Positions 12,840 through 18,310 of a DNA stretch of 64,000 bases are shown here, in pieces (position 1 is the stretch's first letter; every line of letters begins with the position of its first letter). A program made the position numbers and the translations under genes. The notes beneath the pieces are model-generated. The model was not told where the DNA came from and made no database searches. It saw nothing but the letters and a program-made list of their open reading frames with translations. This DNA is from Spongilla lacustris. Its lineage: Eukaryota > Porifera > Demospongiae > Spongillida > Spongillidae. The stretch covers positions 11,225,109 through 11,289,108 of the forward strand of contig OX442419.1 of the NCBI GenBank assembly GCA_949361645.1, read 5' to 3'.

Positions 12840-13842
12840 GCATACATGTACGTACATACCAGCTGCCACCATCGTGGACATAGAACGGTCAAAAATAGCT
12901 AGTGCAAAGTGTTGCAGCAAGAGTAAATAAACTCCCCTGCTACTTCTTAGCAATCAATACAAACCCGCTAATTGCTACGTACAGAACGATAGGATTAGCC
13001 AAGGCCTATGCGATAGGTGCGCGTCTCATAGACCCACTTTCATGCACGAAAGATACATGTAAGTAGTTTGAAGTGAATACCAAAGTCAATATAGTGCACA
13101 CAACAAAGTTACGCACTAACCTGTTTGTTCAAGCCGCCATGACAGTCGCGAGCGCTACTTGATGGCTTCGTTCCGTAGTTGTATCTGTTTCACGAGTAAT
13201 CAAACCGATCGGTTTGCACCGTCAGAAGGCCAAACTCTCGTAGCATCGTTTTTCATAAAGTTCACAATACAAAACTTTCATCGTTTGAAAGTTATATGAC
13301 GTGTCGCTCCGACTATATTAAAACTAAGAATATTTAAAATTTAATCTGGGCCATAACGTATTCAATAACGTAACGTAATCTGGGCCCTAATCTGTTAATT
13401 GAGTTCAAACCATCTGGTATAATCTTGTGCAGTATAATTTGTATGTATACCATCATCTAAACAATACGGGCATGAATGTGCACCGAATTGTATATCTACA
13501 GCCGAATGCCTATGCATAGTATCGTACCATCTTTAGCCCCTTTTTTGCTCTTATTTTGATACACAGTTGACACATTCTTCTGTTTCTGCATCTGATCGCT
13601 GCTGAGCACTTAATGTACGAACAGACAGCATAGTAGTTCTAAAGTGTATGCACAATTTCTGCTGCTTTTAGTGCGAATGTATAATTGGTATAGTGATGAT
13701 CCTGTTCTGATATTTATTTTAAATATATATTTTGTATTTTCGGGAACTGAGCGGGAACCAATGTTCCTGCTCGAGAACCATCAATACAATGTGAAAAAGG
13801 TGTGGAAGTGCAGGTTATTGAAAATACCATGCATCAAGCACA
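12840..13842. other. Non-coding stretch with a doubtful exon-like end
   Basis: Mostly featureless. Just before the transposon insertion point (about 13742-13842) one frame reads REPMFLLENHQYNVKKVW, which could be an exon interrupted by the insertion. No convincing splice acceptor precedes it. Confidence 0.3.
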
Positions 13843-13884
13843 TACAGTAGACGCCAGAAAAAAAGTCACGTTTCGTTTTAGTGC
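13843..13884 (+). repeat. Left terminal inverted repeat of the two-gene Tc1 element
   Basis: 42 bp starting TACAGTAGACGCCAGAAAAA and ending TTTTAGTGC. All 42 positions match the reverse complement of 18269-18310. Confidence 0.95.
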
Positions 13885-14053
13885 AACGATTGCTGCACCA
13901 TGCAGTTTTTATATAAAAACAATATTAGCACGATTATCTCCTTTCACCCTTTGGTATGTGTTAAATGATTCGCGTGAACTGCGCAACTCCGTCTAAACTG
14001 GTTTTATCGTTAAGCACGCGGCTTCTTTTTAATAGTATCGATCAGTTTAGACG

Positions 14054-16422
14054 ATGACGCTTCGAAAAGCACTGAAAGAGCTGAGTAAGTACATGTAACT
14101 TTTTAACATAATCGAAATGGTTTATCATATTGTTCTTGTTGCGAAGAACCGTTTTTTCTAATATTCTGGTCCGAGGAGAATTCGGTAACGAGGGTGCCGA
14201 AGGAGAAGGTGTTGCCTTCGGTAAAAGGAGATGCGCATGAGGTCGGCAGCACGGTACAAGTGAAAGATGGAAAAAATGTTTTTAGCGGACAGATTGCAGC
14301 AACAGGTAAGAAAAACAGCTAGGTCTACTACTATTTACATGGCACGTATATTATTTAGGCACAGAACAAGAGATGAAAGATTTAGAGGAGCAATTTGAAG
14401 CGGGTCGATGGAATCCTTTAGAAGTGACACCAGCAGCGGGCGAGAAAAGAAAACCTACGACACCTCCGAACGAGGCGAAGAAGAAGAAGCGAGACGAAGA
14501 AGCGGATGATGGAGCGGATGGAAAGGAAGATGACGCGAGAACGTCGTTAGTAGCGGAAGGAAAGGAAGCGGGAAAGGAAACGGAGAAAAAGGAAGATGAC
14601 GCTAGGATGAAAGGAAAGACAAAAACGAAAGGAAAGAAAGGTAGCACGATGGCAAAGGGAAGGCGTGGAGCGGTAAAAAATGACGGAGCAGTAAAGAAGA
14701 AAGCTGCAGCAAAAGTAGTTAAGAAAAAAAAGGAAGATGGTAAATGTAATAAATTTGCTCTATATTTTAAAATTACATTTTTCCTTTCTTGCAGGTAAAA
14801 TACTTGTTGTTGGCAGGTAGCCTGACACCACTCAGGTATATATATTTAGTGGTTTACTTACTGTCTTGCAAACGTTACCTTCACAGTTTGCAGAAGTTGT
14901 CCCAGGATGTACCGTTCCACAGCCAGTGCCTATTACCATCCAACAGCCTACCATCCAACAGCCTACCATCCAACAGCCTACCATCCAACAGTCTACCATC
15001 CAACAGCCTACCATCCAACAGCCTACCATCCAACAGCCTACCATCCAACAGTCTACCATCCAACAGCCTACCATCCAACAGCCTACCATCCAACAGCCTA
15101 CCATCCAACAGTCTACCATCATCCAACAGCCTACCATCCAACAGTCTACCATCCAACAGCCTACCATCCAACAGCCTACCATCCAACAGCCTACCATCCA
15201 ACAGCCAGTGTCTACTACTGTCCAACAGCCAGTGTCTACCCCACAGGTAATGTAATGATCAATTCCAATACATATAGTTCCATTGCATTCATCCCTAGGT
15301 CATATCCTCTCCTATCTGTGGTGGTGATGATATTTACACCCATTTACCTAATGAGGATATTTCAGGTGGCTCATGCTCACATGACAGTGATGACAGTGAA
15401 AAATTGGATGAATCTGGTTAGTAGTGCAATGTGAAATAATGTGTTTCAACATACAAATTGTACTTTTAGATCCCCTACTGCTTGAGCTAGAGGTTATGGA
15501 GACAAGACAGCAACTGGAAGAGCTCCAGAGACAGCATACCAACCTGCAATCCGAGCACAATGAAATGAAGATGAAAGTAGAGGGGATGCTGGGTGCACAA
15601 AGATTAATGGAGGAATGCTTGAACGATCTCTTATGCCAATTCAACACATTCCCCCGACTCAACTATGGAGCAACTGTGCACAGTTTTGGCACCACATCAC
15701 CTGGTCTAAGTCCTGGAGTGCTGCCATTTACAGGCCTGAACTGCACTAGCAATTATCCAAGTACCTCCTATGGTCCATCGATTTCTGACACGTCCACGCC
15801 AGCCCGTACATATTTGCCTAATGCCAGAGCTCGGCTACCTAGAACTCAACTTCACTTCATGGATCCTGAGTCTCTACAAACACCACCCATCCAGCCACCA
15901 TCTATCCAGGCACCACCTACATGTATCCAGGTTCCATCTATCCAGGCTCCATCTATCCAGGCTCCATCTATCCAGTCACCAACTCCATCACCAGCAGCAG
16001 CTAACCAACTAGGACCAGCTAACTACCAAACACCACCACAGCCACTACTACCTACAAGGCAGAACACAGCGAAGTGCTTAGACTCATGTGAAATCAGGAA
16101 GGAACTGTTGAGGCCAGTCGATGAAGTGCTGTTCATCAATGCCAAGTACCGGGTTCTAAGTAAAGCCTCTACGTTAGCTGTCAAGTTGGCCAAGGAGGCC
16201 TTTTTTGGTGATAATGTCCTGGTGCGGTGCACAGTGGCCGGAGGGAGAGAGTTTCCAGGGTTACCTCAAAAAGAGATGCAGGAGTTAAAAGGTGTAATGC
16301 TTAGGCAATTTCCGCAGTTCTGGCAAGCGCCAGTTCAATTTGAGCTCACATGGAAAGATTGTTGTGAATCAATCGGCCAAGCGTGTAAGAGACTAAGAGA
16401 TAAACATAAGAATGTGCAGTGA
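14054..16422 (+). CDS. BEN-domain protein encoded inside the Tc1-type transposon
   Basis: Six exons join in one frame (14054-14084, 14147-14305, 14359-14739, 14894-15246, 15299-15416, 15470-16422): 1995 nt, 664 residues, with introns mostly 52-62 bp. Order: an N-terminal segment with FFLIFWSEENSVTRVPKEK and EVGSTVQVKDGK (about 11-63); a K/E/A-rich basic region with likely nuclear signals such as EAKKKKR (about 64-190); a Q-Q-P-T-I repeat (about 205-300); an acidic linker with DSDDSEKLDE; a coiled coil (LELEVMETRQQLEELQRQ, about 350-405); a Pro-rich part with PSIQAPSIQ repeats; and a C-terminal BEN-like domain (about 556-660) with RPVDEVL, LAVKLAKEAFFGDNVLVRCT, QFPQFW and SIGQACKRLR. BEN domains bind DNA or chromatin proteins. 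The role in transposition is an inference. The domain call is by pattern, not a profile search. Confidence 0.8.
14941..15205 (+). repeat. 15-bp coding minisatellite (Gln-Gln-Pro-Thr-Ile)
   Basis: About 17 tandem copies of CAACAGCCTACCATC inside exon 4 of the BEN gene, with a CCT/TCT variant about every fourth copy and one 3-bp insertion near 15119. Because 15 is a multiple of 3, changes in copy number keep the frame. All forward frames are open here. The QQPTI frame is chosen because it joins in phase at both splice sites. Confidence 0.95.
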
Positions 16423-16591
16423 AATATGGGTGATGGGTGTTTGTGTTGTGCATATCTTTCGTCCTGAATGATAACCTTGTGTGTACAAGAACATACATGT
16501 ACTAACTTTGGGATACAGTCCTGGGTATATGACCTCACTGTTGAAGGGTCTAAGGGATGATACCTAGTGTACACAAACCTTTAAAGGCTCT

Positions 16592-16960
16592 ATAAGGGTA
16601 TGGACCCCTCCACCCGTCCAAATGCCTCCTCCCCTTTGAAAGGTCTAAAAGTATGGTACCCTCCACCCGTCCAAATGCCTCCTCCCCTTTGAAAGGTCTA
16701 AGGGTATGGTACCCTCCACCCGTCCAAATGCCTCCTCCCCTTTGAAAGGTCTAAGGGTATGGTACCCTCCACCCGTCCAAATGCCTCCTCCCCTTTGAAA
16801 GGTCTAAAAGTATGGTACCCTCCACCCGTCCAAATGCCTCCTCCCCTTTGAAAGGTCTAAGGGTATGGTACCCTCCACCCGTCCAAATGCCTCCTCCCCT
16901 TTGAAAGGTCTACCCTCCACTGGTCTATATGCCTCCTCCCCTTTGAAAGGTCTAAGGGTA
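16592..16960. repeat. 53-bp minisatellite between the two transposon genes
   Basis: About six and a half copies of a unit containing GGTCTAAGGGTATGGTACCC, TCCACCCGTCCAAATGCCTC and CTCCCCTTTGAAA. It fills the short space between the BEN gene stop and the transposase stop. Confidence 0.95.
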
Positions 16961-17050
16961 CAAAGTTGTAAATTCTGGGTCTATTAACAGTACATGTTGT
17001 TGATGAGACCATATATGTACATGTAACTCTACCAAAAAAAAAAAGAACAA

Positions 17051-18104
17051 TCAGTATCCAGTAGCACACCCATTAAGTTCTATTATTTTTGGCAGTACTT
17101 TGCGCAAGTGTCCAATATAACGCCTGCACTTTTCCCTGTCCACAGTGTTCCAGAAGGCAAGAATGCCATCTATAAGCTCCTGCTTGATCTTTGGCTTCAC
17201 CTCCCTACGGATGTATTCTTTCAGCTCATGCCACAAATTCTCAATGGGATTAATGTCCGGGGACTCTGGAGGGGTTTTCCACCAGTTCACTCCATTGTCC
17301 ACCATCCACTGTGTTGCATACCCTGAGGTATGCTTGGGATCGTTGTCTTGCATCAGACGATGACCATTGGGGTAGAGAACTTGGATGGAGTGCAGCAAAG
17401 ATGAACTCAGAATGTCAACAAACAGCTCCTTTTTCATTATACCATCAAAAATACATATGGCCGCCCTCCCTTGCATACTGATGCCAGCCCAAACATGAAC
17501 CTTTAGAGGATGCTTTGGCCTGTGAAATATAAAACAAACATGATAAAATGAACATTAACATATAATAAGCTCACCTTGGCTTTGGCTTTGGAGCGTGTCC
17601 TATTTTTCTGCAGCAAAACCTCCGGTGCGACTCCATTTGAACAGTGCATTCGTCTGTCCAAATGACATCATCAAAGGAATCGTTGAGATTATCTCTCGCC
17701 CAAGCCAACCTCTTCACCTTGTTGACATCACGTATCAGCTGGCAATACGCGCTGCCTCGAAAGGTCCACCCAAGAGCCTTTCTACAGCGCAAAACAGTAC
17801 GAGCACCGATCTTGTAGCCACGTGATACCAAAAGTTTGTGCAGTTGAAACGCTGTGGTTTCATCGTCCTTTTGCATCTGCTGCTCCACCAGCGCTTTGAT
17901 CTCTGCCGTGATGGCTGACAGGCGACCTGACCCAGGTTTTCGACGGATCGAGTGGGTAATTTCATAGCGTTTCAGGAACCTGTGAATATTTTCACGCGTA
18001 CATTCCATGCCCTCCAATTGAAGACGCTTGTAGATCGTTGGCGCTTTGAGCCCTTTCCGATGATAAAAAAGGATACGAAGCTTGATGTAATCGCTGTAGA
18101 CCAT
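17051..18104 (-). CDS. Tc1-type DD34E transposase, one 55-bp intron, apparently intact
   Basis: Exon 1 runs 18104-17575 and exon 2 17519-17051. The intron 17574-17520 has GT/AG ends. The joined frame is 999 nt, 332 residues, the usual size for Tc1 transposases. The N-terminal half has paired helix-turn-helix-like segments (KLRILFYHRKGLKAPTIYKR and a later LHKLLVSRGYKIGARTVLR) linked by a basic RRKPGSGR stretch. Catalytic residues are visible: Asp in VIWTDECTVQ, Asp in LMQDNDPKHTS and Glu in SPDINPIENLW, with 34 residues between the last two, giving DD34E. The splice restores KPRPKHPLKVHVWAGIS, a standard Tc1 sequence. The start codon lies about 165 bp inside the right TIR. It should bind the TIRs and carry out cut-and-paste transposition at TA. 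Confidence 0.93.
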
Positions 18105-18268
18105 TTTCGAATTTCGAACATATTAATAAGTTAACTGACGCGGTTTAAAAAAAAAAACTATGACGTCTAAAAGCGATTAACAAGATCCGGTGCTAATATG
18201 AACCGTGCAATCGATTCGAAGACACAACTAAGACAAAACGGAAGCCATACATTCGTGCAACGGGCGTC

Positions 18269-18310
18269 GCACTAAAACGAAACGTGACTTTTTTTCTGGC
18301 GTCTACTGTA
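18269..18310 (-). repeat. Right terminal inverted repeat of the two-gene Tc1 element
   Basis: 42 bp ending TTCTGGCGTCTACTGTA, the exact reverse complement of 13843-13884. The final TA is the target duplication. Confidence 0.95.

Follow-up and report, generated by a model that had tools for sequence, protein, structure and literature searches.

A Tc1-type transposon of the sponge Spongilla lacustris with a transposase gene and a predicted Tudor-BEN partner gene

The window analysed here is a stretch of 64,000 nucleotides of Spongilla lacustris contig OX442419.1 (C5:11225109-11289108, in a genome of 248.6 Mb and 51 contigs). It contains a two-gene DNA transposon at 13843-18310, 4,468 bp long including the TA at both ends. 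The left TA and its 40-bp terminal inverted repeat (TIR) occupy 13843-13884 on the forward strand and match exactly the reverse complement of the right TIR and TA at 18269-18310, on the reverse strand; the perfect 42-bp repeats of the initial annotation are these 40 bp with the TA counted in. From left to right, the element consists of a TA, an inverted repeat, a BEN-domain gene (forward strand), a transposase gene (reverse strand), the second inverted repeat and a TA. The two genes are convergent, tail to tail as first described, and between their ends lies a 53-bp tandem repeat (6 copies, 16593-16912) whose copy number apparently varies among copies of the element.

The transposase reading frame is open over 332 amino acids and is split by one 55-bp GT..AG intron (17520-17574, reverse strand). 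Exon 1 (17575-18104, reverse strand) encodes an N-terminal helix-turn-helix-like (HTH-like) region and the first catalytic D, and exon 2 (17051-17519, reverse strand) encodes the rest of the DDE core. The joined protein matches Pfam DDE_3 with E 3.9e-18 (66.1 bits, cut-off 28.6), and DD34E spacing was counted by eye on the spliced translation, in agreement with the intact DD34E gene originally proposed. The N-terminal match to HTH_Tnp_Tc3_2 (E 4.3e-4, 20.9 bits) is below its cut-off of 31.5. The Pfam scans covered the last BEN exon, the BEN core, the transposase and the related proteins P0001-P0003.

The BEN gene can be spliced from the window sequence as a six-exon model of 664 amino acids, all on the forward strand. 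Exon 1 (14054-14084) has the same N-terminus as the independent Ephydatia muelleri gene model P0002, which also agrees on the junction with exon 2 (14147-14305). Exon 3 (14359-14739) encodes a Lys/Glu-rich linker, exon 4 (14894-15246) holds a 15-bp coding repeat of 18 copies (14934-15206), exon 5 spans 15299-15416, and exon 6 (15470-16422) ends in the 120-residue BEN core (16060-16419). At the C-terminus, residues 550-664 give a 99% match to the E. muelleri gene model Em0025g21a. The related E. muelleri models P0001 and P0002 contain an extra stretch, GKILV.G.LPDTTQ, encoded by a 41-nt exon that comparison of gene models places at 14795-14835 (forward strand) in the window. The six-exon model skips this exon, which here carries an in-frame TAG at 14818-14820. 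The TAG is absent from the sister copies L024 and L025; in L024, a loss of 8 bp just downstream of the exon disrupts the reading frame, unless splicing differs at this place. The six-exon gene of the initial annotation thus stands as a spliceable model with a corroborated start, but its description as intact is not confirmed, given the TAG.

The product of exon 2 is predicted by its fold to contain a Tudor-like module (14149-14304), and this stretch is related (35%) to its counterpart in another family of copies, family B. The BEN core scores 19.1 bits with Pfam PF10523, where the gathering cut-off is 23.2; the match anticipated at about residues 556-660 is therefore present but weak. Among 10 relatives scanned singly, two exceed the cut-off (24.5 and 25.9 bits) and four give no match. 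The predicted structure of the core (predicted local distance difference test, pLDDT, 92.9) has the BEN fold and matches solved BEN structures, largely of domains bound to DNA, judging by their titles. Because of this fold and the two relatives above the cut-off, the BEN identity is supported despite the low Pfam score. A sequence-only search of the PDB with a BEN profile returned no BEN chain up to E 1, and six weak ribosomal-protein matches.

With up to 3 mismatches allowed, the first 31 bp of the TIR match at 15 places in the genome; a reversed-pattern control matches at none. Tables of TIR ends and genes place both genes in at least 13 TIR-bounded elements of five lineages, a lower bound that comes from part of 192 TIR ends and scores the presence of the genes, not their intactness. 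The window's family has three such copies (4,468, 4,876 and 3,650 bp, the last deleted inside the BEN gene), family B has seven of 10.2-12.3 kb, and three further lineages have one each (5.8, 6.0 and 10.2 kb, with ends found as exact 14-bp matches; the 10.2-kb one matches exon 1 of the transposase in two separate pieces). Several full copies with both genes between the same TIRs, the check named in the initial annotation, are thus at hand. Across the two-gene lineages the TIRs mostly start with TACAGTA, and in one family B copy they are perfect over 31 bp. Two family B copies that were compared are 99.7% identical over 8.1 kb; thus, this family has been active recently. The family B copy at C17:3002952 (L062, L060, L058) owes its great length to an internal tandem array, in which a 165-bp unit recurs about 26.6 times with 99% matches. 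Derivatives that have lost part of the BEN gene also occur (L025, L026 and L028, the last being 607 bp long with a remnant of BEN exon 2), as does L063, which is 8,655 bp long and has a transposase that is broken. Among the ends listed, a number of facing TACAGTAGCGGTCA pairs lie 0.4-0.6 kb apart, for example C1:11251097-11251703, and resemble miniature inverted-repeat transposable elements.

Movement of the whole two-gene unit at a TA is seen in one copy, L024. This copy is inserted in a host tandem repeat, and its flanks, joined at one TA, are up to 97.9% identical to neighbouring repeat units that carry no insertion; the two-gene unit has therefore moved as a whole. The TA target-site duplication of Tc1/mariner elements is visible as a TA on both sides of the window element and, at the L024 site, as a single TA in the uninterrupted host units. 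For the window copy, no uninterrupted homologue appears among 40 scored matches to its joined flanks. The left flank of its insertion (about 13630-13826) is an interspersed repeat with at least 38 further matches at 74-79% identity.

Genome searches give 105 matches to the BEN exon, 89 to a second BEN query, 162 to transposase exon 1 and 146 to transposase exon 2, which, tabulated by hand, collapse to 100 BEN loci and at least 149 transposase loci (the exon 1 loci being taken from the matches listed). Among the matches listed, a transposase lies within 10 kb of 51 of the 100 BEN loci. At 48 of these it is downstream and in convergent orientation, at 44 of them within 4 kb, and at 3 it is arranged otherwise; the chance expectation of pairing within 4 kb is 0.48. 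The other 49 BEN loci have no listed transposase within 10 kb. From the transposase side, a BEN locus lies within 10 kb of 25 of the 27 best exon-1 matches (E <=1.3e-64), in convergent orientation for 24; the two without one are C17:4854968 and C1:21251254. Four stop-free BEN frames of 309-456 amino acids with no listed transposase (C1:26970117, C13:3041272, C1:13113588 and C1:13215713) are possibly host genes or more diverged elements; a TACAGTAGCGGTCA end lies 1.9 kb upstream of the frame at C1:13215713. Also without a listed transposase is a tandem array of BEN cores at C1:22700299-22717375, with seven fragments on the same strand, of which the first five follow one another at intervals of about 2.9-3.2 kb.

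In public databases, 2,280 proteins match the transposase (P0004) at E <=1e-3; the best listed is 65% identical, and almost all of those listed are unnamed. No confirmed relative elsewhere was found when viral contigs were searched with P0004 and BEN alignment A3, genome contigs with P0027, and both with transposase alignment A4. A transposase tree of 69 sequences, of which 24 come from the 28 extracted from the genome and 45 from the 120 public matches listed, places the BEN-linked sequences in three groups with public sequences in between. Five transposases of the genome (L064-L068) are intronless and have no BEN locus listed within 10 kb; they split off at 100/100, and two sit on long branches. 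Of the three transposase groups, two reappear in the BEN tree of 16 paired loci (at 100/100 and 96/92), and the window's group is not resolved there. With one pair taken per close cluster, and L073 dropped for its cut BEN match, the transposase and BEN distances correlate over 10 of the 16 pairs (r 0.78, p 5e-5), with identities of 47-83% for the transposase and 37-96% for the BEN core. The pairing and orientation persist across lineages; the two genes have remained associated as the element split into several lineages. The pairing is not a single recent capture, because BEN-bearing lineages differ down to 37% identity in the BEN core and 47% in the transposase. Different Tc1 lineages might instead have captured host BEN genes repeatedly and independently, as the lack of an exclusive clade of BEN-linked transposases, with unnamed public ones interspersed, and the partial resolution of the BEN tree would allow; but the constant orientation, the related N-terminal domain in families A and B, the partly congruent trees and the correlated distances all fit one origin better, and repeated capture is improbable.

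Between diverged copies, the BEN core changes mostly at silent sites. For pairs with synonymous divergence (dS) >0.2, the ratio of nonsynonymous to synonymous change (dN/dS) is 0.12, 0.20, 0.12 and 0.15 between the window and four decaying relatives, and 0.17 and 0.30 in one pair from each of two other lineages; a seventh value, 0.12, is not independent of these. Eleven pairs at dS <0.04 have at most 13 changes and dN/dS of 0-1.13 or undefined, five of them at 0.89-1.13. Transposase pairs range from 0.15 to 0.47, except for two at 1.11 and 1.57, both with split matches. Stop codons were excluded, and three BEN and two transposase pairs are saturated. The young copies, with no constraint on the BEN core, and the internally deleted ones (L025, L026, L028) are what one might see if a host BEN gene had been captured once and carried as a passenger without function, but the low ratios of the six diverged pairs in three lineages and the unchanged orientation in diverged lineages that keep BEN speak against it, and we consider it highly improbable.

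The interpretation that we find probable is that the window holds one copy of an old, diversified Tc1-type (IS630-Tc1-mariner, DD34E) lineage with a transposase and a Tudor-BEN accessory partner that binds DNA or chromatin. The initial reading of a Tc1 lineage with its own BEN gene is supported; the roles first suggested for the BEN protein, namely binding near the ends, guiding integration or shielding the element from silencing, are proposals. The BEN domain would bind DNA, either sub-terminal sites of the element or target DNA, the Tudor-like module would bind chromatin, and the partner would tether the complex of transposase and TIRs to chromatin, serving synapsis or the selection of a target. 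Several points weigh against the initial reading. The BEN gene of the window is likely a recent pseudogene unless the 41-nt exon is skipped, because P0001 and P0002 include the exon that carries the TAG here; a host BEN orthologue may exist, given the 49 BEN loci without a listed transposase; and multi-gene Tc1/mariner elements have a precedent in ciliates (TBE and Tec), going by the portions of the sources available. A broader proposal is unlikely as a whole: that a Tc1 lineage of ancient origin in animals has two components, with a Tudor-BEN protein that reads chromatin, binds DNA and directs the transposase, that the close public transposases (<=65% identity) carry or have lost the partner, and that elements of this kind may have given rise to some of the BEN chromatin proteins of hosts.

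Sub-terminal sequences were considered as BEN binding sites. The motif GTYTARAC is found 4 times at each end of family B, and the two ends of the related family C hold 4 and 2 copies. The left end has two copies in family A and a single copy in L028 and in L032. The motif occurs 0 times in 59.5 kb of flanking window sequence, and 15 of 17 right ends lack it, as does the L037 left end. Sub-terminal 8-bp palindromes number 30, with 17 expected, and sub-terminal repeats are enriched, 93 against 25 (15 ends). Since this enrichment is equally strong in two BEN-less relatives, the repeats fail to identify BEN sites, and the motif, the palindromes and the repeated 8-mers were not used as such. The BEN-less transposase relatives L064 and L065 have CTCGCGAG sub-terminal palindromes, 3 and 1 copies in the ends examined.

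The partner could also act on expression, as a self-encoded anti-silencing factor or insulator, or as a repressor that limits copy number. Several BEN-domain proteins are co-repressors or insulator factors, the matched BEN structures are largely DNA-bound, the predicted Tudor-like module would fit the reading of histone marks, and low dN/dS is equally expected. Against this role, no regulatory site was identified, and selection for a self-repressor over several lineages would be unusual. We regard it as possible, though on the unlikely side. A Tc1 lineage that keeps a likely chromatin reader and DNA binder makes it possible to test whether cut-and-paste elements can themselves encode a factor for chromatin targeting or against silencing.

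The standard textbook example of transposition that requires a single protein is the Tc1 transposase, and Tc1 elements usually measure 1.3-1.7 kb. The sponge element shares with them the TA target, the TIRs, the DDE_3 DD34E transposase and, going by a match below its cut-off, a putative N-terminal HTH-like region, but it has a second, multi-exon gene for a predicted Tudor-BEN protein and an intron in the transposase. The two-gene elements, at least 13 in number, span 3.7-12.3 kb and depart from the single-gene make-up that is typical of Tc1/mariner without defining it. The two-gene logic of a transposase with a DNA-binding helper is that of MuDR, CACTA (En/Spm) and Harbinger, which differ in superfamily, target duplications and helper folds. 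The host proteins BANP, NACC1, BEND3, BEND6, insv and Bsg25A have the BEN fold in common with the sponge partner; to our knowledge they have not been described as transposon-encoded, and a transposon may be the source of some BEN proteins. In the open-access literature searched we found no Tc1 element with a BEN or Tudor-BEN partner, and the initial annotation likewise knew of none. The genome paper of E. muelleri reports 47% repeats, and its main text makes no mention of Tc1, mariner or the BEN domain. The nearest known systems are in ciliates. TBE elements of stichotrich ciliates, as described in the available parts of the sources (PMC4724952, PMC7325037), combine a Tc1/mariner transposase with accessory genes under purifying selection, in fixed orientation and with tandem repeats between two genes. 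These accessory genes, the orientation and the inter-gene repeats resemble the sponge element, but TBE has three genes, including a 22-kD open reading frame (ORF) and a 57-kD zinc-finger/kinase ORF, a ciliate host and telomere repeats in its TIRs. The sponge element does not have this gene set: kinase and zinc-finger Pfam profiles gave no match in the window's last BEN exon, the transposase, P0001 or P0002. Tec elements, also of ciliates, share the multi-gene Tc1/mariner make-up with the sponge element and differ, in the part of the source available (PMC7325037), in their three ORFs, which include a site-specific recombinase, and in their TIRs of about 700 bp.
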